Program-made: the position numbers and the translations under genes
Shown here: positions 22,427 to 38,888 of the stretch, piece by piece
How positions within the stretch are numbered: position 1 is the stretch's first letter
Layout of the letters: each line of letters starts with the position of its first letter
Notes under the pieces: model-generated
What the model was told of the DNA's origin: nothing
Databases searched by the model: none
The model's input: only the letters and a program-made list of their open reading frames with translations
DNA from: a virus
DNA length: 47,471 bases
Direction: 5' to 3' (one strand)
IMG/VR virus record: IMGVR_UViG_3300030102_000773
Span: 1 to 47,471 of that record

Positions 22427-22780
22427 ATGAGTGCAGGTTATCATCATTTCATCATAGAACAGGGAGCGACCTTTGGTCAGACCCTTACATTAAAGGATTC
22501 TAGCGATACCTTAATAAATCTTACTGGTTATACATCAGCAGAAATGGACTTGAGGGAGACACCTGAGAGTTCATCAGAAGTAATCACACTAACTACAGCA
22601 AATAACAGAATCGCACTAGGTGGTTCTGCAGGTACTGTTACACTCAGCATATCAGCAGCCGATACAGCTAATTTAACAGCAGGAGACGGGGTTTTTGACT
22701 TAGAGATAGTAGATGGTAGCAGTAGAGTGTTTCGTATCTTAGAAGGCACTTATACAATCAGAAGGAATATAAGCAGATAA
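22427..22780 (+). CDS. BppU-like small tail/baseplate protein
   Basis: The product has 117 aa. The sequence follows the pattern of the BppU N-terminal/DUF2479-type Ig-like domain: IEQGATFGQTLTLKDSSD, LINLTGYTSAEMDLRE, AGTVTLSISAADTANL and VFDLEIVDGSSRVFRILEGT. These domains attach receptor-binding structures to the tail. It overlaps the giant fibre gene by one base (TAATG), so it is probably its adaptor. Confidence 0.65.
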   Translation: MSAGYHHFIIEQGATFGQTLTLKDSSDTLINLTGYTSAEMDLRETPESSSEVITLTTANNRIALGGSAGTVTLSISAADTANLTAGDGVFDLEIVDGSSRVFRILEGTYTIRRNISR

Positions 22781-25700
22781 TGGCTATATCTAAAGTCACA
22801 ACCTCAAATACAAACACTATAAACAAAGTCGTTGTAACAGACAGCGATGCAATAAGTATCATAACGGTAGGAACACAAGGATTATCAGGTGCTGCAACAC
22901 TATTGGGTAAAACAGTAGAGGCAGAAACTGTAGGATCTAGTGATGCAGGTTCTACCGTTATTTATGATCATGCAAACTCAAGGTGGTTGGCAACAACATC
23001 AAGCAACGCAACTTCACTTACAACAAAGCTACGAGCATTAGTTTTTTCTGCAGGTGGTGCATCAGTTACGCAAGTTTTAGACGAAGATAACTTAGGAAGT
23101 AACAGCAACACATCTCTAGCTACTCAACAATCTATAAAAGCTTATGTAGACGCACAGATAACAGCGCAAGATTTTGATTTTCAAGGAGACTCAGGAGGCG
23201 CACTGAGCATTGATCTGGATTCAGAAACTATGACCTTCACTGGAGGAACGGGCATAGATACTTCTGGAAGTGGCAACACTGTTACTTTCTCAATAGATAG
23301 CACGGTTGCTACACTCACAGGGTCGCAGACTCTCACTAACAAAACTCTCACATCTCCTGTACTCAATACCGTTGATATAAACGGTGGTGACATATCGTCT
23401 GGAACTACGATCAATAAGTCACCTGAGATCACCCTAGCAGGGGATTTGTCGGGGTCTGTGACTCTCACCAATTTAGCTGATGGTACACTTACAGCCACGA
23501 TTGCAGCTAATAGTGTCGCTCTCGGAACTGACACAACGGGAAACTATGTCGCAACTGTAGCAGCAAGTAATGGCGGTATTGATGTGGCAAATAGTGGTAG
23601 TGAATCTGCGGCTGTTACTGTTGGATTAAATAGTGAGTTTGTACAAGACATAGTAGGCGCTATGTTTACTGGCAACACGGAAACCAATATAACAGCCACA
23701 TACCAAGATAGTGATGGAACTATAGATCTTGTAATCGGAACACTTAATCAAGATACAACTGGCAATGCTGCAACAGCTACAGCTCTAGCAACTGCTCGCA
23801 CGATTCATGGTGTTAGCTTTGATGGGACTGCAAACATTGATCTTACGGAGGTCGTTCAAGATACAGTGGGTGCTATGTTTAGCTCTAACACAGAGACTAA
23901 CATCACTGTAACTTATGAGGACTCAGACGGTACTATTGATTTAGTTATAGGAACGCTCAATCAAGACACCACAGGAAATGCAGCTACTGCAACAGCACTA
24001 CAGACCGCAAGAACCATACACGGAGTGTCTTTTGACGGTTCAGCCAACATTGACCTTAGTGAAGTTATACAGGACACGGTGGGCGCAATGTTCAGTAGCA
24101 ATACTGAAACTAATATAACTGCAACTTATGAAGATAGCGATGGCACAATAGATTTGGTTGTTGATACTTCTAGTGTCACAGAAACGCTTACCAATAAGAC
24201 AATTACGAATCCTACGATAAGCGACCCTGAGTTTTCAGGAACTTTACTAACAGCACCTAGCGAAGCAACAACACAGACTCTGACAGTCACAGTGGCAAGT
24301 AAAACTAGCGAGCATCCTTATGACAGTGGTAGCGGAAATGCTTATGTGATTGATGGAGTAGAAGCACCATATATAACCCTCACACCAGATACAACATATA
24401 GATTTGATCAATCAGACGGAACAAACTCTGGTCATCCTCTTAGGTTCTACTTTGATGCCGACAGAACGACCATATTCTCTACAGGAGTCACAACAAATGG
24501 CACAGCAGGAAGTGCAGGTGCTTATACTGAAATAAAAGCCACAGCTTCTACACCTACCGTTCTGTTCTATCAATGTACTAATCATGCCCTTATGGGCAAC
24601 AGGGTGAACTTTGATACTAGAAATCTAACAGGATTTGACACTGATGACTTATCAGAAGGCTCTACAAACCTTTATGTGACAAACGAAAGAATACAAGACA
24701 TAGTTGGAGGAATGGTATCTGGCAACACAGAAACAGGCATTACAGTGTCTTACGAGGATTCTGATGGTACTTTAGATTTTGCAGTAGGCAACGCAACTAC
24801 AGCCACAGCCTTAGAGACAGGTCGTACAATAGCTCTTAGCGGTGATGTAACAGCCACAGGCGTAAGTTTTGATGGTAGTGCTAACATAACCCTATCTACA
24901 ACTATTGCGGCTAACAGCGTAGCTCTAGGCACTGATACGACAGGAAACTATGTTGCAACAGTTGCAGGCACTTCTAATGAAATAGAGGTATCAGGATCTG
25001 GATCTGAAAGTGCAGCAGTCACCATAGGTTTGCCTGATGATGTAATTATTGGCAACGACCTTACTGTTACAGGAGATCTAACAGTCAATGGTGACACAGT
25101 AACACTAAATACAGCTACGTTAGATGTAGAAGATGCAACCATCAGAGTAGCCAAAGGTGCTACGAGCCTTGCCAATACAAACGGAGCAGGCATTGAGTTT
25201 GGTGCTTCATCAAGTAAACCTACGATTCTTTGGGACAATGGCAACTCAAGACTATCTGCCAATAAACCTTTTGCGGCATCTTCTTTTATAGGTGCTTTGA
25301 CAGGAAACGCATCAACTGCCACTGCTTTAGAAACAGCAAGAACTATAAGCGGAGTTAGCTTTGATGGAAGTGCAAATATTACTCTTGATACGGATGATAT
25401 TGGAGAAGGTTCTAGCAATCTTTATCACACTACAGAAAGAGTACAGGACATAGTAGGTGCAATGTTCTCATCCAATACAGAGACAGGCATAGCGGTTACT
25501 TATGAGGACAGTGACGGAACTATAGACCTAGTAATAGGTTCAGGAGTTATAACCAATGATATGCTTGCAGGTTCAATAGCAAACGCAAAACTTGCGAATA
25601 GTGCTATTACAGTGAGCGATGGTTCTAACTCTACAGCTACAGCTTTAGGCGGAACTATAACCTTTAGCGCAGGTGAAGGCATAGATGTCACAGAATCAAG

Positions 25701-28700
25701 CGGTACGATAACTATAGCAGCAGAGGAAGCTACTGCCTCCAACAAAGGTGTAGCATCCTTTACAAACAATTTCTCAGTAAGCAGTGGTGCTGTATCTTTA
25801 GCAGACTCAGGTGTGAGTGCAGCTAGTTATGGAAGTGCTACTGCAGTACCAGTTATTACAGTAGATGCCAAAGGTAGAATTACAGCCGCAAGCACAGCAG
25901 GCATCTCAACAAGCTTCACACTATCAGACGGTTCAAATACACAAACAGTTTCAGGTGGCGATACTCTAACAGTATCAGGCACTAGCAATGAGGTAGATGT
26001 AGCGGTAAGTGCAACTGACACACTAACGATAGGATTACCGAATGATGTAACGGTCAGCAACAATCTAACAGTAAGCGGTAACTTGACTGTAACAGGTACT
26101 ACGACTCAAACAGGTTCTGTTGTTACTGATAATAATTTTACAGGTCTTGCGAATGCCAATACAGGAAACTCAACAGACTTTGGTTTCTATGGTAAATATG
26201 TAGAGTCAAGCACGACAAAGTATGCAGGTATTTATTATGATGCCTCTGTAGATAATACATTTAGATTATTTGTTGATACACAAACTGTTCCAAGCACCAC
26301 AGTAAACACAAGTGCGACTGGATATGCCGCAGGTAATCTGATTATAGGTGCGCTTACAGCATCTGGCATCACTATCGGCTCTACTGCAGTTACAGCTACA
26401 GCAGAAGAACTAAACATACTGGATGGGGTTACAGCAACAGCCTCTGAAATAAACGTACTGGACGGTATAACAGCAGTCGTTGGAGAACTAAATGCACTTG
26501 ATCTTGGAAGCACTGCCATAGGTACAGCCATAGCATCAAAAGCTGTGATTCTGGATGCAAACAAAGATTATACAGGCATAAGAAATCTAACAGTAACAGG
26601 TGAGTTAGATGGTGCGTCTTTAGACATAAGCGGTAATGCTGACATTGACGGAACATTGGAAGCTGACGCTATAACAGTAAATGGAACAGCACTTGATGAA
26701 TTTATTTCAGATACAGTTGGTGCAATGGTCAGTTCTAATACTGAAAGCGGAATAACAGTAACTTATGACGATTCTGATAACACACTAGATTTCACAGTAG
26801 GCACTTTAAACCAAGACACAACTGGAACTGCGGCACTAGCTACATCAGTAACGATATCAGCCAATAACAGCACAGATGAGACAATATTCCCTGTATTCGT
26901 AGATGGCGCAACAGGAACACAAGGCTTGGAGACAGATACAGGCTTTACCTACAATCCATCCACAGGTCTGCTTACAGCTACAGGTTTTGCAGGAACACTA
27001 CAAACTGCGGCGCAAACCAACATAACAAGTGTAGGAACGCTCTCTGCTTTGTCAGTATCTGGCGATTTGACTGTTGATACTAACGTATTAAAAGTTGATA
27101 CAAGTAACAACAGGGTAGGTATAAAACAAGCATCACCAACAGTCAGTCTTGATATAGGTCAAGCAACAGATGCAATACTATTACCGAAAGGAACTACAGC
27201 ACAAAGACCATCGGCAGAGGCAGGGCAATTTAGGTACAACACAACCCTCAACAGGTTTGAAGGATATACAGATGCTTGGGGTGAGGTAGGTGGTGGAGCA
27301 GGTACATCTACGCTTTCTGTAAACACTTTTACTGCCAACGGTTCAACAACTGCATTTACACTAAGCCAAGCACCAGATAGCGAGGACAACATACTCGTAT
27401 TTGTAGAGGGTGTGTTTATGAACGCAAATGACTTTGTGTTGAATGGTACAACCCTCACATTGGATGAAGCACCGCCAAATGGAAGAAAAATAACCGTTTA
27501 CCATGTAACTGCGGCAGTTGCAGGGACAGGAGTGCATCAAAACAGCTTTACAGGAGATGGCAGTACAACCGCATTTACGTTAGGTGTAAACGCTGTTTCT
27601 GAAAACAATACTCAGGTATATATTGACGGTGTTTATCAAAATAAGGCGACTTATAGCACTTCTGGCACTACTCTCACGTTTGATACTGCTCCTGCCAATA
27701 GTGCGGCTATAGAAGCCATGACATTTACGCAGACGGACATAAATACGTTCCCTGCAAGCGGTATATCTGGTCTAACAGAAGTAACACCAGTAGCAGGCGA
27801 TCATGTGATGATACTGGATGCCACTGATAACGCATTGAAAAAAGCGGATGTAAAAGATCTTATGGAAACTGCGGTTGGTATAACATCAAGCGCTGATGCT
27901 GTTGTGATGACTTTTGATGTCAATGAAAACGTGACATTTACAGGCGATATAAAGACTACAGGAACTAAGAAGATAGAGTTCGGTGATTCTGGCACATTTA
28001 TTCATCAATCTGCAGATGGAGTTCTTGATCTCGTATCTGATAATGAAATAGAGATCAATGCCACAACAGTAGACGTTAATGGTGCTTTAGATGTATCAGG
28101 AAACATTACAGGAACACTTGCCACAGCAACACAAACGAACATCACAAGTGTAGGTACTTTAACAGGCTTCACATCTACAGGTATAGACGATAATGCAGAT
28201 GCAACCGCTATAACGATTGATAGTTCTGAACGAGTCCAAATAGGAAAAACTGCAGCAGTGACAGGACATCCAGTTGAGATACAGGCTAATTCAGCAGGAC
28301 AAGGATTAGGAATATATGGTCGTTCATCTGATGATTTTTCTTTTTTAGGATTTTATGCCAATGGTGCAAACACAGAACGTGCAAGTATTCGTTCAGATAG
28401 CACTGCTAATTTAAATATTAAAACTGGCGGTGTTGAGGCTTTACGTATAGATTCGTCTCAAAGGGTGGGAATAGGAACTACAAGCCCTTCAGCACTTTTA
28501 CACTTGTCAGGAACTGACCCAATAATAAAGTTTACTGATACAGCAGGGGGAGATGACTTCGGAATATTTGCATCTGCTAGTGATTTTTTAGGATTTTTTA
28601 ATTTTTCTGACACTAGGACAGATATGGTTATTGATGGGTCTGGAAACGTAGGCATAGGAACTACGAGTCCACAAGCACATCTTGATATAAATACAGAAAC

Positions 28701-29658
28701 CGCAGAGGCAACTACTGTTATTTTAAATGGTGAAGCTAATCAAGATAAAATTCTTAAATTTAGACACTATGAGAATAGTGAAGCAGCAGGTGACGGATAT
28801 GCAGGATTTATTGGTTCTGTTGTAAGTGGGGGTATTCTTACACTAGGACATTACACTTCTGCTAATTCAGAAGTTCAGGCTTTACATATTAATGAGTCTG
28901 GAAACGTAGGCATAGGAGTTACTAATCCTGATGGTGAACTTCATGTAGAAAGCTCAGGTAACGCAGACGTTTATGTAGAAAGAACTTCTGGAGCAAAGAT
29001 ACATTTACAGGCGCAATCAGCTTTAGGGAATATAGGCACTAGCTCAAACCATGATTTAGGTCTTTTGACGAATGGTTCTGTTAGAGCAAGAGTACATAAT
29101 GACGGAGGTATGTCTATAGGAACTGCCGATAAATTGGACGCAACTTGTTTATTAGCTTTTGGAACACATACTAACGATAACGTAGGAATAGTAAGTATAA
29201 GATCACAAGGTAGTGATGAATCGGCTTGTGCTTTATCAATAGTTAAAGCAGCAAGTGGTACATCAACCTCGCAAATTTATATTAAGTTTGGTGTAGACGG
29301 TTACAACTCTGGTGGTGGTATGATAACGGCATCTGGTTCTACTGGTGCTTTCGGTAGTTTCTCAGATTCAAGGTTGAAAGAAAATATATCTGACCTATCT
29401 TCACAACTACCTAATATTTTGGCACTAAGACCTGTTAATTTTGACTTTAAAGATGCTTTTAATGGAGGTAAAGATCAAATAGGTTTCATAGCGCAAGAAG
29501 TAGAAAAGGTTTATCCAGATTTAGTTGGAGAAAATGATGGTTACAAAATAACTTCTGGTCTAAACAAAATGGAAGCTAGATTGATAAAAGCAATCCAAGA
29601 ACAACAAGAACAAATAGAAACTCTTAAAAAAGAAGTGGAGGAACTAAAAGGTGGCTAA
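22780..29658 (+). CDS. Giant tail fibre with cupredoxin-like insert and S74 chaperone domain
   Basis: The product has 2292 aa and is the largest gene here. It is built of repeats: about six copies of a VGAMFSSNTETNITVTYEDS-type unit (near residues 290, 365, 430, 640, 890 and 1310), a LNILDGV/INVLDGI repeat set near 1208-1250, and VGIGTTSP repeats after about 1880. Residues about 500-612 form a separate cupredoxin-like domain: YVIDGVEAPYITLTP, GHPLRF (His552) and FYQCTNHALMG (Cys599, His602, Met605). The C-terminus (about 2190-2292) is a Peptidase_S74 intramolecular chaperone, with SDSRLKENI, GFIAQEVE and a final coiled coil. It trimerises the fibre and is usually cleaved off after folding. 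The fibre should recognise the host surface. Confidence 0.9.
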   Translation: MAISKVTTSNTNTINKVVVTDSDAISIITVGTQGLSGAATLLGKTVEAETVGSSDAGSTVIYDHANSRWLATTSSNATSLTTKLRALVFSAGGASVTQVLDEDNLGSNSNTSLATQQSIKAYVDAQITAQDFDFQGDSGGALSIDLDSETMTFTGGTGIDTSGSGNTVTFSIDSTVATLTGSQTLTNKTLTSPVLNTVDINGGDISSGTTINKSPEITLAGDLSGSVTLTNLADGTLTATIAANSVALGTDTTGNYVATVAASNGGIDVANSGSESAAVTVGLNSEFVQDIVGAMFTGNTETNITATYQDSDGTIDLVIGTLNQDTTGNAATATALATARTIHGVSFDGTANIDLTEVVQDTVGAMFSSNTETNITVTYEDSDGTIDLVIGTLNQDTTGNAATATALQTARTIHGVSFDGSANIDLSEVIQDTVGAMFSSNTETNITATYEDSDGTIDLVVDTSSVTETLTNKTITNPTISDPEFSGTLLTAPSEATTQTLTVTVASKTSEHPYDSGSGNAYVIDGVEAPYITLTPDTTYRFDQSDGTNSGHPLRFYFDADRTTIFSTGVTTNGTAGSAGAYTEIKATASTPTVLFYQCTNHALMGNRVNFDTRNLTGFDTDDLSEGSTNLYVTNERIQDIVGGMVSGNTETGITVSYEDSDGTLDFAVGNATTATALETGRTIALSGDVTATGVSFDGSANITLSTTIAANSVALGTDTTGNYVATVAGTSNEIEVSGSGSESAAVTIGLPDDVIIGNDLTVTGDLTVNGDTVTLNTATLDVEDATIRVAKGATSLANTNGAGIEFGASSSKPTILWDNGNSRLSANKPFAASSFIGALTGNASTATALETARTISGVSFDGSANITLDTDDIGEGSSNLYHTTERVQDIVGAMFSSNTETGIAVTYEDSDGTIDLVIGSGVITNDMLAGSIANAKLANSAITVSDGSNSTATALGGTITFSAGEGIDVTESSGTITIAAEEATASNKGVASFTNNFSVSSGAVSLADSGVSAASYGSATAVPVITVDAKGRITAASTAGISTSFTLSDGSNTQTVSGGDTLTVSGTSNEVDVAVSATDTLTIGLPNDVTVSNNLTVSGNLTVTGTTTQTGSVVTDNNFTGLANANTGNSTDFGFYGKYVESSTTKYAGIYYDASVDNTFRLFVDTQTVPSTTVNTSATGYAAGNLIIGALTASGITIGSTAVTATAEELNILDGVTATASEINVLDGITAVVGELNALDLGSTAIGTAIASKAVILDANKDYTGIRNLTVTGELDGASLDISGNADIDGTLEADAITVNGTALDEFISDTVGAMVSSNTESGITVTYDDSDNTLDFTVGTLNQDTTGTAALATSVTISANNSTDETIFPVFVDGATGTQGLETDTGFTYNPSTGLLTATGFAGTLQTAAQTNITSVGTLSALSVSGDLTVDTNVLKVDTSNNRVGIKQASPTVSLDIGQATDAILLPKGTTAQRPSAEAGQFRYNTTLNRFEGYTDAWGEVGGGAGTSTLSVNTFTANGSTTAFTLSQAPDSEDNILVFVEGVFMNANDFVLNGTTLTLDEAPPNGRKITVYHVTAAVAGTGVHQNSFTGDGSTTAFTLGVNAVSENNTQVYIDGVYQNKATYSTSGTTLTFDTAPANSAAIEAMTFTQTDINTFPASGISGLTEVTPVAGDHVMILDATDNALKKADVKDLMETAVGITSSADAVVMTFDVNENVTFTGDIKTTGTKKIEFGDSGTFIHQSADGVLDLVSDNEIEINATTVDVNGALDVSGNITGTLATATQTNITSVGTLTGFTSTGIDDNADATAITIDSSERVQIGKTAAVTGHPVEIQANSAGQGLGIYGRSSDDFSFLGFYANGANTERASIRSDSTANLNIKTGGVEALRIDSSQRVGIGTTSPSALLHLSGTDPIIKFTDTAGGDDFGIFASASDFLGFFNFSDTRTDMVIDGSGNVGIGTTSPQAHLDINTETAEATTVILNGEANQDKILKFRHYENSEAAGDGYAGFIGSVVSGGILTLGHYTSANSEVQALHINESGNVGIGVTNPDGELHVESSGNADVYVERTSGAKIHLQAQSALGNIGTSSNHDLGLLTNGSVRARVHNDGGMSIGTADKLDATCLLAFGTHTNDNVGIVSIRSQGSDESACALSIVKAASGTSTSQIYIKFGVDGYNSGGGMITASGSTGAFGSFSDSRLKENISDLSSQLPNILALRPVNFDFKDAFNGGKDQIGFIAQEVEKVYPDLVGENDGYKITSGLNKMEARLIKAIQEQQEQIETLKKEVEELKGG
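28648..28670 (+). repeat. 23-bp repeat shared between fibre genes (copy 1)
   Basis: The bases here (GTAGGCATAGG, then AACTACGAGTCC) are identical to 32355-32377 in the third fibre gene. Both encode VGIGTTSP-type repeats. The DNA identity exceeds what the protein requires given codon freedom, so it may mark exchange between fibre genes. Confidence 0.7.
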
Positions 29659-31231
29659 CACAAAGGTAACATCAAGGGTATTAGCGGACAACGCAGTTCT
29701 TACAGCAAACATAAATGATGATGCTGTAACCACAGCCAAGATAGCGGACGATGTGGCTCTAGGTGGCAACCCTACCACAACTACGCAGAGCGCAGGCAAT
29801 AACACCACTAGAATCGCCACCACTGCATTTGTTACCACTGCGGTAGCTAATATAGTAGATTCTGCTCCAAGTGCCTTAGACACACTTAATGAACTTGCGG
29901 CGGCATTGGGTGACGATGCTAACTTCTCAACTACGGTTACTAATTCTATTGCTACTAAAGCACCATTGTCAGCACCAACATTTACAGGTGATGTTGATAT
30001 AGATGCTACTGATGACTTGAGGCTTAGATTTTTAAGGGGAAGTACTTTTAAAGGTGGCATACAAGTTCCGACATCCACAGGAGACATGATTTCTGGATCG
30101 GCAGTAGATGACCTAGCAATAAGATCACAAGGCAATATTCTTTTCTCAAGTGGCGGCAATACTGAGCATATGCGTATTGCGTCAGGAAAAGTGGGTATAG
30201 GAACTGACAATCCTGCAACTACTTTAGACATAAGAACTTCTAATGGCTCAGATGCAAAATTAAGACTAGGCTCGTCAAGTTCTATTGGCTTAGATGTTTT
30301 AGGAACTATTGAATTTTTCTCTGCCGATCCAGATGACTCTGGTATTAAGTCATCAATACATAATTTATCAACAGGAAATCAAGGTCCGGGAGGGTCTTTG
30401 AGTGGAAACCTTATATTTAGTACCACTGCTTCCGATGGTGGTGGTAATGATAGCCCAACAGAAGCTATGCGAATTGATTCGTCTCAAAACGTAACCACAA
30501 CAGGACACCTCAAAGCAAAAGGACAACTAATAACACAAGGAACGAGATCTTCAGGTAGAGGCGAAATACATATAAACGGGTCAGGTGTAGATGATGTTGC
30601 AGAAATATTCTTTGGATATGGTGATGGTTATACATCTGGCGATGGCAACATACGATGGGGAATATCTGATAGAGGATATTCAAACGGACACTTAATATTT
30701 TATGAGGGTCCAAAAAATTCGGGAGCAGGTTTTACAGAAGTTGCCTCATTTACGCAAACAGATGGAGCATTTAAAGTAGTAAATGGTATCAGGTTCGGTT
30801 CAGACACAGCAGCAGCTAACACACTAGATGACTATGAAGAGGGTACTTGGAGTGCTTCTTTAAGAGGTACTAGTGGTCAAGCAGGTGCTCATGCACAATC
30901 AACTGTTTCTGCTCATTACAGAAAAGTAGGTGGACTGTGTTTTATAAACGCACACTTTTATTTAACAAATAAAGGTAGTTATGGTGGGAGTACAACTTTA
31001 GTAGGTTTACCTTTTACAAACACAGGAAGTACAGGACAAATATCATTGGGCTCATTTCCTGATTCAGGATATGGAACAACGTCAGGTAATGTACTGATTG
31101 CAGCATCAATTCTGTCAGGAGGAGCAGAAGTAAGATTTTACGAAGGTGCAAGATTAGATGGCAGTCACTCATATTCTGATGTGGGTACTGGTTACTATGT
31201 AAACATTGGTGGATGTTATCCAGTAGATTAA
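29651..31231 (+). CDS. Second tail fibre protein
   Basis: The product has 526 aa. It starts at GTG 29651, eight bases inside the end of the giant fibre gene, with GGAGG upstream. The N-terminus (TSRVLADNAVLTANIN, VTTAKIADDVALGG) is the same attachment module found in the third fibre. The centre carries VGIGTDNP repeats. The C-terminus (DDYEEGTWSASLRG, HYRKVGGLCFINAHFYLTN) is a common fibre tip. There is no S74 domain, so it may trimerise by itself or use a neighbour. Confidence 0.82.
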   Translation: MANTKVTSRVLADNAVLTANINDDAVTTAKIADDVALGGNPTTTTQSAGNNTTRIATTAFVTTAVANIVDSAPSALDTLNELAAALGDDANFSTTVTNSIATKAPLSAPTFTGDVDIDATDDLRLRFLRGSTFKGGIQVPTSTGDMISGSAVDDLAIRSQGNILFSSGGNTEHMRIASGKVGIGTDNPATTLDIRTSNGSDAKLRLGSSSSIGLDVLGTIEFFSADPDDSGIKSSIHNLSTGNQGPGGSLSGNLIFSTTASDGGGNDSPTEAMRIDSSQNVTTTGHLKAKGQLITQGTRSSGRGEIHINGSGVDDVAEIFFGYGDGYTSGDGNIRWGISDRGYSNGHLIFYEGPKNSGAGFTEVASFTQTDGAFKVVNGIRFGSDTAAANTLDDYEEGTWSASLRGTSGQAGAHAQSTVSAHYRKVGGLCFINAHFYLTNKGSYGGSTTLVGLPFTNTGSTGQISLGSFPDSGYGTTSGNVLIAASILSGGAEVRFYEGARLDGSHSYSDVGTGYYVNIGGCYPVD

Positions 31232-31238
31232 TAATTAT

Positions 31239-31256
31239 GTCTAGTGGACTCTAGAC
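31239..31256 (+). promoter_or_regulatory. Small hairpin upstream of the gene at 31269
   Basis: GTCTAG and CTAGAC form a 6-bp stem with a six-base loop, ending just before an AAGGAG ribosome site. It may modulate translation of the next gene or mark the 3' end of the fibre mRNA. No U-run follows. Confidence 0.4.
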
Positions 31257-31268
31257 AAGGAGAAAAAA

Positions 31269-31562
31269 ATGGCAATAACAAAAGAAGTAATACAAGATAA
31301 AATAGAGATATTAGGAGATGGAAAAGATTTACAAGTACGTACTGCTACTGTAATTAAAGAAGATGGTCTAGAAATTTCTAGGTCTTTTCATAGACACGTT
31401 GTCCAATGTGTAAGTACAGTAAAAAATTCTGATGATTCATTTACACATACAGATACAGACATATCTGGTGAATCAGCAGAAGTACAGGCAATAGCAAACG
31501 CAGTTTGGACTGATGCAGTAAAGACCGCAAAGAAAACAGCAAACGAAGCATCAATGGCTTAA
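31269..31562 (+). CDS. Hypothetical protein between fibre genes
   Basis: The product has 97 aa with AAGGAG upstream. A beta segment (DKIEILGDGKDLQVRTATVI, SFHRHVVQCVSTVKN) is followed by a helical, Ala-rich C-terminus (AIANAVWTDAVKTAKKTAN). I recognise no named family. Similar small genes sit next to fibres in other phages and may be fibre chaperones or adaptors. Confidence 0.6.
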   Translation: MAITKEVIQDKIEILGDGKDLQVRTATVIKEDGLEISRSFHRHVVQCVSTVKNSDDSFTHTDTDISGESAEVQAIANAVWTDAVKTAKKTANEASMA

Positions 31563-31565
31563 GAA

Positions 31566-33371
31566 ATGGCTAACACAAAAGTACAAAGCGAACAGATACA
31601 AGACGGTTCTATAACAGCAGATAAGATAGCTGACGGAGCGATAGTAGCCACAGAACTCGCCGATAATGCAGTGACTACCGCCAAGATAAATGCAGATGCG
31701 GTCACAGGTGCAAAGATTGCCGATGATGCGATAGACTCAGAACACTACACAGACGGAAGCATAGACACAGCCCACATAGCCGATTCCCAGATCACAGTTG
31801 CTAAGATGGCGGCAAACTCCGTAGATTCAGATCAGTACGTTGATGGTTCTATAGATACAGTACACATAGGCGATTCACAGGTCACAACAGCAAAGATAGC
31901 CAATGGAAATATATCCACAGCCAAGTTAGCTGACAACTCAGTCACCAGTGCCAAGCTAGACACCAACATAGACATAGCAGGTACGCTTGATGTAACAGGT
32001 GCTACTACTTTGGATGCAGGTCTAACCGTAGATACAACAACGCTAGTGGTAGATGCTTCCAATAATAGAGTTGGTATAGGAACTGCAACTCCAAGTCAAA
32101 TACTTAACGTTGAGGCTACAAGCACACCAGTTATTGAAATATCCACTTTAGATGATAATAACCCTGCAAGTGCTTCTGCTCTTGATCTGATAGAAAAACA
32201 GCCTACTCATGCAGCCGATACAGCAACCTTTGGGCAAACAGGTGTATATGGTTACAGAATACAACTAAATGGCTCTGACAACTCACTAAGAATAAAATCA
32301 GGTGTACAGACAACTGTAAATGACAGAATTACTCTTGATAGAGATACAGGAAAAGTAGGCATAGGAACTACGAGTCCTACAAATACTCTTGATTTAGGTG
32401 CTGCTACTTCAGGTAGAGCGTTAACTTTTGCCAACTATACAAACCTTTTTTCTGAATACAGTAATGCTTCTGGATGGCTTTCTAGTAACTTTTATGGAAA
32501 TGCAGGAGCAGCAGGATATAAAACGGGCGCAACAGGTAATTTTGGTGCAGCAGGAATTCGTGTGCATGGAACTGGAGGTGGTGGTAACAGTGGAATAATA
32601 CAATTCTTTACTGATACAAATTCCAATAAAACAGCAGGTGATGCTTTTACTCCTACAGAAAAGATGCGCCTCACTGAAAATTCCCATTTAGGAGTGGGTG
32701 GTACACTTGCTAGCTTTAGTACTGGAGGATATAGCACACACCCTTTATATGTTCAAACAGGAGTCAGTAACGGAACTGCGGCTACAGATGCTTTTGTGCA
32801 TATCGGTCAACCAGTAGGATTGTCTAATGCAAATACTGATGGTTATATCTCAGGAATTTCTTTGGGTTATCACGAAAACAATACTAACTATAAGCATACT
32901 GCAATAGGTGTTAGAGCGCACGGTGACGGTGCGGCAAGAAGGGATATGGTTTTTCTTGTTAATAGCACTTATGAATCAGCATCTGCTTCTTTAGGAGATT
33001 CAAAGCTAACTATATCAAGCGGTAACGGTGTTGTATCAGGTGACCTCAATGACACTTCAGACAAAGGTTTCAAGAAAAATATAAAAAATCTTGGAAACAC
33101 TTTAGACCTTGTAAAACAACTTAAACCTAGAACTTTCACATGGAAAGGCAGAAAAGCAGCTAGAGGCGATTCAGTTGGTTTTATAGCACAGGAAGTCAAA
33201 GAAGTTATAAAAGATGAGACAATCGTACAAGGCTCTGCATACGAAAAAGATGGAGATACAGGATTGAGTATAAACACAGTGGGTCTTGTTTCTTATTTGA
33301 CAAAAGCAATCCAAGAACAACAAACAATAATAGACGACTTAAAAGCAAGAATTGAGGCACTAGAGTCTTAG
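31566..33371 (+). CDS. Third tail fibre with S74 chaperone domain
   Basis: The product has 601 aa. The N-terminus is a long run of degenerate repeats of the type ITADKIADGAI/VTTAKINADAV (about residues 10-145), followed by VGIGTATP and VGIGTTSP repeats. The C-terminal 110 residues are a Peptidase_S74 domain: TSDKGFKKNI (Ser498), GFIAQEVKEV and a terminal coiled coil. Fibres with the same N-terminal module but different tips suggest alternative or combined receptor recognition. Confidence 0.87.
   Translation: MANTKVQSEQIQDGSITADKIADGAIVATELADNAVTTAKINADAVTGAKIADDAIDSEHYTDGSIDTAHIADSQITVAKMAANSVDSDQYVDGSIDTVHIGDSQVTTAKIANGNISTAKLADNSVTSAKLDTNIDIAGTLDVTGATTLDAGLTVDTTTLVVDASNNRVGIGTATPSQILNVEATSTPVIEISTLDDNNPASASALDLIEKQPTHAADTATFGQTGVYGYRIQLNGSDNSLRIKSGVQTTVNDRITLDRDTGKVGIGTTSPTNTLDLGAATSGRALTFANYTNLFSEYSNASGWLSSNFYGNAGAAGYKTGATGNFGAAGIRVHGTGGGGNSGIIQFFTDTNSNKTAGDAFTPTEKMRLTENSHLGVGGTLASFSTGGYSTHPLYVQTGVSNGTAATDAFVHIGQPVGLSNANTDGYISGISLGYHENNTNYKHTAIGVRAHGDGAARRDMVFLVNSTYESASASLGDSKLTISSGNGVVSGDLNDTSDKGFKKNIKNLGNTLDLVKQLKPRTFTWKGRKAARGDSVGFIAQEVKEVIKDETIVQGSAYEKDGDTGLSINTVGLVSYLTKAIQEQQTIIDDLKARIEALES
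32355..32377 (+). repeat. 23-bp repeat shared between fibre genes (copy 2)
   Basis: Identical to 28648-28670 in the giant fibre gene. It lies at a module boundary between the repetitive shaft and the downstream unique part. Confidence 0.7.
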
Positions 33372-35793: not shown

Positions 35794-36207
35794 ATGGCAG
35801 CACAAAAAGGTAGTGCGATGCTTATGAAAGTCGGTAACGGTGGATCGCCTGAGACTTTCACAACAATCGGTGGCTTAAGATCAACAAGCCTAACAATCAA
35901 TAACGAGTCAGTTGATGTAACTAACAAAGATAGTTCTAACAATAGAACCATGTTAGCGGCAGCAGGTGTTCAGTCTATCAGTGTTTCAGGTAGTGGCGTT
36001 TTTACAGATGCGGCAAGTGAAGCAACAATAAAGACTAATGTATTAGCTGACACAATAGATAATTATCAGTTCTTAGTTCCTGACTTCGGTACATTTACTG
36101 GTGGCTTTCAAGTCACATCTGTGGAATACGCAGGTGAATTTAATGGAGAAGTCACATACAGTTTTTCTTTTGAAAGTTCAGGTGCGATTACTTTTGCTAC
36201 GGTCTAA
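35794..36207 (+). CDS. Major tail tube protein (TP901-1 type)
   Basis: The product has 137 aa, beta-rich, of the TP901-1/PF06199 family: GSAMLMKVGNGGSPETFTT, LRSTSLTINNESVDVTNKDS, SVSGSGVF and YAGEFNGEVTYSFSFESSG. It polymerises into the tail tube. It is the only late structural gene outside the capsid block with an 87-bp leader, hinting at separate control. Confidence 0.87.
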   Translation: MAAQKGSAMLMKVGNGGSPETFTTIGGLRSTSLTINNESVDVTNKDSSNNRTMLAAAGVQSISVSGSGVFTDAASEATIKTNVLADTIDNYQFLVPDFGTFTGGFQVTSVEYAGEFNGEVTYSFSFESSGAITFATV

Positions 36208-36210
36208 TAA

Positions 36211-36456
36211 ATGGGTTGGCGATCAGTAAAAGTCAAAGGTACTAAGGGCGACATCCCTGCTATGATTAATGGGGATGTCCTTGAAGTAGCCAATCAGTTA
36301 GGAAAAGACCCATCTGATGTAAAAATAGATGGTAAGTCCTATAAAGTATCGTCTTGCTCACTAGATGAAAGAGATGATGTATTAACAATCAAACTTGCAA
36401 TGGCAAGTACAAAACAGGAGAAGTCAGATGACAAACCCATTAAAGGGCGAGATTGA
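36211..36456 (+). CDS. Hypothetical small tail-region protein
   Basis: The product has 81 aa with a beta pattern (MGWRSVKVKGTKGDIPAMIN, KIDGKSYKVSSCSLDERDDV). It starts three bases after the tail tube stop and overlaps the start of the tail chaperone gene by 29 bases. No family is recognised. Confidence 0.6.
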   Translation: MGWRSVKVKGTKGDIPAMINGDVLEVANQLGKDPSDVKIDGKSYKVSSCSLDERDDVLTIKLAMASTKQEKSDDKPIKGRD

Positions 36457-36784
36457 GATAGAGTTAGGCGGTGAAACTTACAAATGTAGGCTCACTATAG
36501 ATTCACTGGTTAAAATAGAAGATGAACTGGATGCAGGCATATTAGAGCTAGCATCTGATATATCTCAGGCAAAGGTTAGACTGCGTACCTTATTAGTGGT
36601 ACTAAGATATGCTATGAGAGGTGGAGGTAATGACTTTGATGATCGCAAAATTAAAGAGATACTTACATCAACTGGCATAATTCCTGCATCAGCAGTAGTT
36701 GCACAATTACTAGCCGATTCTTTAACTGACCCTGATGAAGCACAAGAAGGTGGTTCTGCAAAAAAGCAGGAGATGACAGAATAG
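36428..36784 (+). CDS. Tail assembly chaperone (short form)
   Basis: The product has 118 aa from the ATG at 36428. The first part (TNPLKGEIEIELGGETYKC, LTIDSLVKIEDELDAGILEL) matches the TAC_11/GTA gp10-like family. Such proteins coat the tape measure before tube assembly. Near the C-terminus lies A-AAA-AAG in the right phase for -1 slippage. Slippage would fuse the first 113 residues to the downstream frame and make a G/GT-like pair, the usual strategy of long-tailed phages. Confidence 0.85.
   Translation: MTNPLKGEIEIELGGETYKCRLTIDSLVKIEDELDAGILELASDISQAKVRLRTLLVVLRYAMRGGGNDFDDRKIKEILTSTGIIPASAVVAQLLADSLTDPDEAQEGGSAKKQEMTE
36760..36766 (+). promoter_or_regulatory. Programmed -1 ribosomal frameshift site (dnaX-type heptamer)
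   Basis: The heptamer A AAA AAG is in the zero frame of the chaperone gene. An AAGGTGG Shine-Dalgarno-like sequence lies six bases upstream (36747-36753), as in E. coli dnaX. The -1 frame after it is open without a stop to 36969. This arrangement is expected for tail chaperones in long-tailed phages. Confidence 0.8.
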
Positions 36785-36969
36785 AATGGACATCATACAT
36801 GCAAATATGTATTGGAATGATGGGCATGAGACCAAAAGACTTTTGGGATTTAGCACCTAGAGAGATGTGGGAAGCAATAAAAGGTTTTCAACAATTTCAT
36901 GGTTCAAAACAAGACCGACCTATGACAAATGATGAGTTAGAAAATTTAATGGAGTTATACCCTGACTAA
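36766..36969 (+). CDS. Tail assembly chaperone, frameshifted extension
   Basis: This is the second half of the fused chaperone, read as join(36428..36766, 36766..36969), giving 180 aa in total. The 67-residue extension contains GMRPKDFWDLAPREMWEAIK and a final NDELENLMELYPD, which match the TAC_6/GTA-type chaperone family (PF09550) that recruits the tape measure. Independent initiation (ATGs at 36802 or later) has no good ribosome site. It ends at a TAATG overlap with the tape measure gene. Confidence 0.8.
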   Translation, partial: AGDDRIEWTSYMQICIGMMGMRPKDFWDLAPREMWEAIKGFQQFHGSKQDRPMTNDELENLMELYPD

Positions 36970-38888
36970 TGGCAACAGTAGATGAACTTATAGTAAAGAT
37001 ACAGGCTGATACTAAAGACCTGCGAAAAAAACTTGATGAAACAAATAGACATCTAAATAAGATAGATAAAAATTCTAAGCAGGCAGGTTCATCAATGTCT
37101 GCTGCATTCACAAAAGGTAAAATAGCCTTAGTGGCTGCAACAGCAGCCGCCCTTAAATCTGCTACATCTATTGCTAGTGTTGGTATGCAGTTTGAAGATT
37201 TAAAAGATTCTTTAGACCAAGTTTTTGGTAGCATGGCAGCAGGCGATCAAGCAATGCAAAGTGTATTTAAGTTTGCACAAACCACGCCATTTCAAATAGA
37301 AGATGCTACTAAAGCATTTATTGCCCTCAAATCAGCAGGCATAGAACCTAATATGGACATGCTACAAACATTTGCTGATACAGCATCTGTATCAGTAGAT
37401 CAATTAGGCACTTTTGAAGCCTTAATTAGAATGGTACAAAGATCAGCCTCAGGCGGCATGGGTTTAGAAGAGTTAAACATGATATCTGATAGAGGTATTG
37501 ATGTATTAGGTATATTAGGAGAAAAGTTAAATTTAACCAAAGATGACATAGCTAAGTTTGGTAAAACTGCTGACGGCGCAGCCAAAATGGTAAAGGCATT
37601 AACAGAAGGGTTGAAAGAGAAATTTGGCGGTGCGATGGAAGCCAAAATGGATAACTTATCTGTCAAAACATCAAATATGACAATAGCTTTTAAACAACTA
37701 GCTGATGATGTATTTCAAAGCGGATTGGGTGATTTTCTAAAGGAAATGGCAGATTCACTGACAGAATTTGCTGATGGAATACTTAGGGCAAGACAAGCAT
37801 CAAGAGGTGAGATTTTCCCAAATATGGAAAATATATTATCTTTGAGTGATCCAAATCAAAGACTTGCCGCACTAAACAGACAAATAGAATTACAAACACG
37901 AGCGCAAGAAGCAAATGAAGATTTGCTTGGTAATATATCTGCTAATGCTAGAGATAGTGAAATTCTATTTATTTTACAAGAAAGAGTAAGGTTTGAAAAA
38001 ATGTTAGCCAACATGCTGCAAATGAGAACAAGCCTTGAAAAAGAAGTAGGTAAAGCACAAAAAGACAGCACAGATAAAACACTCACTGAAGATCAAATAT
38101 CATTACAAAATGAATTTAATAAACTTTTCCAAGATACAATTCCTGAATATGACAAATTACAAGTAAAGATTGACACTTTAAGAGAGGCACTTGCTGCAGG
38201 CACATTAGACGCAAAAGGAAATCCATTATTTGATCCAGAGCAAGGAGAGGCTGTTTTAGAACACTTACAGAAGCTGCAAGACGAGTTAGGAGAAGTTGAT
38301 GAATTTACACAAGCTATGACAGATGTAATTATATCTTCTTCACATGCTTTCACTAAAGATTTTGTTGATGCTTTGCTTAACGGTGAAAATGCTCTTGAAT
38401 CTTTCAAAAACTTTGCAAAAAATATTGTCTCAGAGATTATCACAATATTTTTGCAAATGGCTGTAGTAAATAAAATACTCAATCAAGTATTCAATGCAGG
38501 ATTGCCTGAAATTAATATTGGTGGCTCAAAACCCACATTGAAAGGTGGAGGCATACAAGGTAGCTCTGCATTTAGCAATCCAATGAATACACTTGCAGGT
38601 GGAGGTTCAGTACAGAGAGGTACACCTACACTGGTTGGAGAACGAGGAGCAGAGATATTTGTTCCAAACACAGGAGGCACTATATTAAATAACATGAATA
38701 GTAGAAACGCTATGGGTGGTAGTCCTATTGTTGTGAATCAATCAATAAACTTTGCTACAGGTGTTGTTCCAACAGTAAGAGCAGAAGTCACTAAGATGCT
38801 TCCACAAATATCAGAGGTGGCTAAGGCAGGAGTATTAGAAGCAGGCATAAGAGGTGGTAATTTCAGAAAGGGGTTATTAGGTGGCTAG
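36969..38888 (+). CDS. Tape measure protein
   Basis: The product has 639 aa, short for a siphovirus. At about 0.15 nm per residue this would imply a tail near 95 nm. The N-terminus is a coiled coil (DTKDLRKKLDETNRHLNK), followed by a typical FAQTTPFQIEDATKAFIALK block and KTSNMTIAFKQLADDVF. Hydrophobic parts appear near 45-62 and 495-520. The C-terminal TLVGERGAEIFVPNTGG motif is common to tape measures. It fixes tail length and is threaded out on infection. Confidence 0.92.
   Translation: MATVDELIVKIQADTKDLRKKLDETNRHLNKIDKNSKQAGSSMSAAFTKGKIALVAATAAALKSATSIASVGMQFEDLKDSLDQVFGSMAAGDQAMQSVFKFAQTTPFQIEDATKAFIALKSAGIEPNMDMLQTFADTASVSVDQLGTFEALIRMVQRSASGGMGLEELNMISDRGIDVLGILGEKLNLTKDDIAKFGKTADGAAKMVKALTEGLKEKFGGAMEAKMDNLSVKTSNMTIAFKQLADDVFQSGLGDFLKEMADSLTEFADGILRARQASRGEIFPNMENILSLSDPNQRLAALNRQIELQTRAQEANEDLLGNISANARDSEILFILQERVRFEKMLANMLQMRTSLEKEVGKAQKDSTDKTLTEDQISLQNEFNKLFQDTIPEYDKLQVKIDTLREALAAGTLDAKGNPLFDPEQGEAVLEHLQKLQDELGEVDEFTQAMTDVIISSSHAFTKDFVDALLNGENALESFKNFAKNIVSEIITIFLQMAVVNKILNQVFNAGLPEINIGGSKPTLKGGGIQGSSAFSNPMNTLAGGGSVQRGTPTLVGERGAEIFVPNTGGTILNNMNSRNAMGGSPIVVNQSINFATGVVPTVRAEVTKMLPQISEVAKAGVLEAGIRGGNFRKGLLGG

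Follow-up and report, generated by a model that had tools for sequence, protein, structure and literature searches.

How is the second of two overlapping open reading frames translated when it lacks an independent start ahead of its conserved domain? The question arises in a 47,471-bp virus record, which is taken over its whole length and referred to here as the window. The overlapping pair lies between the genes for the major tail protein and the tape measure protein, and the relevant features are the following:

35794..36207, + strand: major tail (tube) protein gene, upstream of the pair (Pfam PF06199, E 3.3e-38)
36428..36784, + strand: head ORF, gpG-like tail assembly chaperone of 118 aa (ATG 36428, TAG 36782-36784)
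36739..36969, + strand: -1 frame ORF with the T-like domain (usable stretch 36760-36969, TAA 36967-36969)
36747..36753, + strand: Shine-Dalgarno (SD)-like element AAGGTGG, separated from the heptamer by a 6-nt gap
36760..36766, + strand: slippery heptamer A AAA AAG (0-frame codons GCA AAA AAG by translation)
36428..36969, + strand: predicted G-T fusion of 180 aa (computed translation, base 36766 re-read)
36969..38888, + strand: tape measure protein gene (Pfam PF20155 TMP_3, E 1.9e-14), the ATG of which overlaps the final base of the -1 frame stop

A first-pass annotation had proposed that a -1 frameshift joins the two reading frames, and every element it described is confirmed. AAAAAAG is read at 36760-36766, and its phase fits the pattern X XXY YYZ, which allows simultaneous -1 slippage of both tRNAs. 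The -1 frame is open as far as 36969, the first codon after the slip is GCA 36766-36768, and recomputation by re-reading base 36766 returned the same fusion length of 180 aa. The statement that the second domain has no good start of its own also holds: the first ATG, GTG or TTG of the -1 frame is ATG 36799, and it falls inside the match to the tail domain, the first profile position of which maps near 36781.

With regard to the protein families, the head matches Pfam PF11836 (Phage_TAC_11; E 6.4e-16, 58.6 bits against a curated cut-off of 27.8) and the -1 frame matches PF09550 (Phage_TAC_6; E 2.1e-10, 41.3 bits against a cut-off of 23.4). The proposed union of a TAC_11-like head with a TAC_6-like tail is therefore borne out, since both scores exceed the curated cut-offs. 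The head also matches PHROG 8985, 'tail tube protein' (E 2.5e-7), and this domain carries the label 'tail tube' in both Pfam and PHROGs. The 81-aa ORF at 36211-36453, between the tail tube and chaperone genes, had no match in Pfam or PHROGs at E <0.01. Elsewhere, the window encodes an ERF recombinase, a PDDEXK nuclease, a DNA methylase and a terminase, and its J-like protein matches tail fibre families and had no match to GTA_TIM. As judged from this gene content, it is not a gene transfer agent (GTA) of the RcGTA type but a phage-like genome that encodes replication and packaging functions of its own. At 22780-33371, between the capsid and head-tail connector genes, lie three long ORFs of fibre-like type (2292, 526 and 601 aa); by eye, two of them end in a motif resembling the chaperone of endosialidase.

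A programmed -1 ribosomal frameshift like that of phage lambda G/GT is, in our estimate, about 94% probable at 36760-36766, and the interpretation given in the first-pass annotation is supported by the sequence comparisons described below. In phage lambda, the tape measure protein is bound by gpG and by gpGT, the scarcer of the two, and it is through the T part that the tail tube protein is recruited (Atkins et al. 2016, PMC5009743; original work by Levin 1993 and Xu 2004, 2013, 2014, as reviewed there). We infer that slippage occurs, at some frequency, and, by analogy with lambda, that the two products share the work as follows. The majority of ribosomes translating 36428-36784 would terminate at the TAG and yield an abundant 118-aa TAC_11 chaperone in the G role. 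A minority would be paused by the SD-like element 6 nt upstream of the heptamer, both tRNAs would slip one base back on A AAA AAG, and reading would continue in the -1 frame to 36969, giving the 180-aa TAC_11-TAC_6 fusion in the GT role. The G part may then coat the tape measure protein, the gene for which follows directly, while the T part may recruit the tail tube protein encoded upstream.

Is the heptamer more than a coincidence? The + strand of the window contains 27 copies of AAAAAAG, from which a chance in-phase copy within the overlap of about 15 codons is expected in about 1% of cases. A chance origin is ruled out by conservation. IMG/VR was scanned with the head, with a divergent head and with alignments of the head and of the tail, which yielded 141 distinct head/tail pairs. 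The tail lies in the -1 frame in 138 of these, and in 137 of the 141 a known shifty heptamer (A AAA AAG, A AAA AAA or G GGA AAG) is present in phase as well. Conservation of the heptamer in relatives, which had been named as a check on the proposal, is thus observed. Dereplication at <85% tail identity left 59 representatives, 31 with A AAA AAG, 16 with A AAA AAA and 12 with G GGA AAG. In a maximum-likelihood tree of their fusions, built with the heptamer codons included, the heptamer type switches at least six times, each time to another shifty heptamer, despite the accompanying change of residues from KK to GK. The base preceding AAA AAG is A in 31/31 of the A AAA AAG representatives and completes the codons of six different amino acids (E, A, S, T, Q and G). 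Furthermore, a -1 frame stop lies directly 5' of the heptamer in 27/59 representatives, with the consequence that the -1 frame can be entered only at the heptamer. Together, the switches, the invariant A and the 5' stops point to selection on slipperiness itself. In one further relative (L081:3327-3351), GGTAAAG is found where its relatives have GGGAAAG, with both the -1 frame and the tail domain undamaged; this may reflect a real loss, a weak single-tRNA slip or a sequence error. Substitutions in the tail, counted pairwise by codon position, gave a picture blurred by indels and were left out of account.

In principle, the tail domain could also be made alone from an internal start, either ATG 36799 or the rare ATA 36781, coupled to termination of the head. 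An AGGAG at 36768-36772 does sit 8 nt ahead of ATA 36781, and ATGA or GTGA overlaps are common among the bacterial relatives. In addition, two viral relatives (L143:2127-2174 and L146:3295-3330) have lost the heptamer and carry the tail in the +1 frame behind an overlapping ATG. The fusion is accordingly not universal in the family, and independent initiation can, to judge from these two sequences, replace the slip within it. For the window, such initiation is very improbable. ATG 36799 would truncate the TAC_6 domain, and the ATA, which other clades lack, is TTA in both L025 and L026. Start codons are lacking before the conserved W region in 47/59 representatives, five of the 59 having none up to the core motif, and an internal start would leave the retention of the heptamer unexplained.

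The first-pass annotation had pointed to an SD-like AAGGTGG just upstream of the heptamer. Across the clade, anti-SD duplex energy peaks 6-7 nt upstream (mean -5.9 kcal/mol at the 6-nt gap), and the SD-like element beats random synonymous coding in 45/59 representatives. The element in the window is placed at this peak. Taken alone, however, it is no stronger than chance (-7.9 against -8.3 for random synonyms), because the residues E-G-G already impose an SD-like sequence there; the claim of an SD-like stimulator consequently rests on the clade. Downstream of the heptamer, RNAalifold returned no consensus pair among 17 relatives, and the mean folding z-score of -0.89, compared with -0.26 in a control window, is a weak excess. 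With no conserved structure downstream, the usual 3' stimulator is unsupported. A hairpin that only the window can form, the loop of which contains the A run, was rejected as it is not kept in relatives.

These data also bear on slippage by RNA polymerase instead of the ribosome, which would create a mixed mRNA pool on the A run. Runs of about nine A, a sufficient length, do occur in the A AAA AAA clade, and in one of its members (L177) the run is one base off, which is likewise compatible with a homopolymer indel. The run in the window, however, comprises only six A, the G GGA AAG of 12/59 representatives is not a homopolymer, and the target of the conserved SD-like element is the ribosome, not the polymerase. 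We regard this explanation as even less probable than an internal start. Least probable of all is a single chaperone ORF split in two by gene decay or by a sequencing or assembly error, a reading already refuted by conservation: the record does stem from a largely metagenomic collection and has a short homopolymer at the junction, but the two-frame layout recurs in 138/141 distinct sequences from many samples, among them one group with non-homopolymer heptamers.

Relatives were also sought among named phages. Searches of a phage collection by DNA or with the head protein found none, while the tail protein matched a few; a plasmid search gave no match. Rhizobium phage RHph_Y3_1 (L335), Desulfofustis phage LS06-2018-MD02 (L336) and Siphoviridae isolate ctuI7215 (L337) carry G GGA AAC in phase within the overlap, and their records annotate the chaperone pair as two separate genes. 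The earlier assertion that simple gene calling misses the tail is half right: the records of these named relatives do include the tail, listed as an independent ORF that has a start to itself. A weak relative of the tail domain occurs in Cellulophaga phage phi18:1 (L339:1474-1514), where it lies in the +1/-2 frame behind a run of nine A with an in-phase A AAA AAA. This junction may represent a different kind of recoding.

It had further been stated that the two chaperones are separate genes in many GTA-like elements of alphaproteobacteria. Alphaproteobacterial genomes were searched for TAC_6, frames were compared at 82 junctions and 77 representatives were classified. The second frame is -1 at 77/82 junctions. 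This relation alone was rejected as evidence for frameshifting in bacterial clusters, since overlaps of the ATGA or TAATG type produce this frame as well; the bacterial case rests on the heptamer, codon choice, missing starts and the position of the SD-like element. An in-phase C CCT TTN is present at the TAC_11/TAC_6 junction in 41/77 representatives, the independence of which is overstated because the genomes are related. A start codon before the conserved W, without C CCT TTN, was found in 25/77, and neither feature in 11/77, three of which have another candidate (GGGAAAG, GGGAAAA or GGGAAAC). The earlier statement is thus correct for about one third of the representatives, in which the tail has a start upstream of its domain, and has to be revised for about half, which have the in-phase heptamer.

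As a control, in-phase CCCTTT was counted in the head bodies, where it occurs in 0/7,700 codons. Wherever PFxW is encoded by the -1 frame within the overlap, its PF is coded CCC TTT, in 38/38 cases from related genomes, compared with background frequencies of 35% for CCC and 36% for TTT. No locus with the W placed has a start codon between the heptamer and the W, and in 7/41 C CCT TTN loci start codons are missing as far as the core FW motif. SD-like elements peak about 10 nt upstream of the bacterial C CCT TTN junctions and beat random synonymous coding in 36/42 loci (p 3e-6, sign test on related genomes). The heptamer is accompanied by such an upstream element in L253, L254, L256, L262, L266, L275-L278, L301-L306 and most of L307-L333. 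Two full clusters (L341, L342) show the RcGTA-type order with portal, capsid, tail tube, TAC_11, DUF2460, hub and GTA_TIM. The coincidence of an in-phase C CCT TTN with an SD-like element at the same junction suggests that frameshifting probably takes place in RcGTA-type GTAs, too. On this comparative evidence, we consider it likely that these elements produce both chaperones (g10/g10.5) by a -1 frameshift at an SD-preceded, in-phase C CCT TTN that also codes for the conserved PFxW motif, with some lineages using an ATGA or GTGA start instead. Programmed tail chaperone frameshifts are documented in alphaproteobacterial phages, among them several phages of Rhodobacter capsulatus (PMC4882933, PMC8601537). 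For the chaperones of GTAs, a search of the openly accessible literature gave no report of frameshifting.

The window itself presents a very probable case of ordinary lambda-type tail chaperone frameshifting in a marine, uncultured siphovirus-like phage. The mechanism is well known; the result corrects the annotation of one gene, offers no new principle, and adds an uncultured phage group to the tailed phages with lambda-type recoding. From phages to GTAs, the TAC_11/TAC_6 pair is linked by A AAA AAG, A AAA AAA, G GGA AAG, G GGA AAC or C CCT TTN, and the public records examined give the two parts as separate ORFs. The extension to GTAs matters more than the window case; the slip signal there is apparently undescribed. 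If frameshifting does occur in GTAs, these domesticated elements would have retained a viral recoding switch in some places and lost it in others, and the frameshifting would bear on how the length of their tails is set.

How does the locus compare with known systems? Like lambda G/GT, it is located between the tail tube and tape measure genes, and the first ORF has, close to its end, an in-phase heptamer for a -1 slip, with short and fused products predicted for the window; the families (TAC_11 and TAC_6) and the heptamer are different. In E. coli dnaX it is the shorter product that arises by frameshifting, whereas in the window it would be the longer one. The label 'dnaX-type' chosen in the first-pass annotation is apt for the slip signal, as dnaX (PMC3711429) has the same A AAA AAG heptamer with an upstream SD-like element; it does not extend to function, which corresponds to lambda G/GT, dnaX being an unrelated gene, or to the dnaX hairpin, no conserved counterpart of which was found downstream in the window clade. 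Caulobacter phage phiCbK makes its tape-measure chaperone pair gp93/gp94 by a -1 frameshift at AAAAAAC, for which phage Colossus has GGGAAAC (PMC3556154); the likeness to the window is one of mechanism, and phiCbK belongs to another phage group. Finally, a 2024 study on the origins of RcGTA (PMC11409702) describes g10 and g10.5 as two genes, for tail chaperones 1 and 2, and makes no mention of frameshifting. As in the window, g10 belongs to pfam11836 and is followed by a second chaperone, g10.5 being likened by its position. Across the GTA clusters, this second chaperone has its own start in some, whereas others carry the in-phase C CCT TTN.
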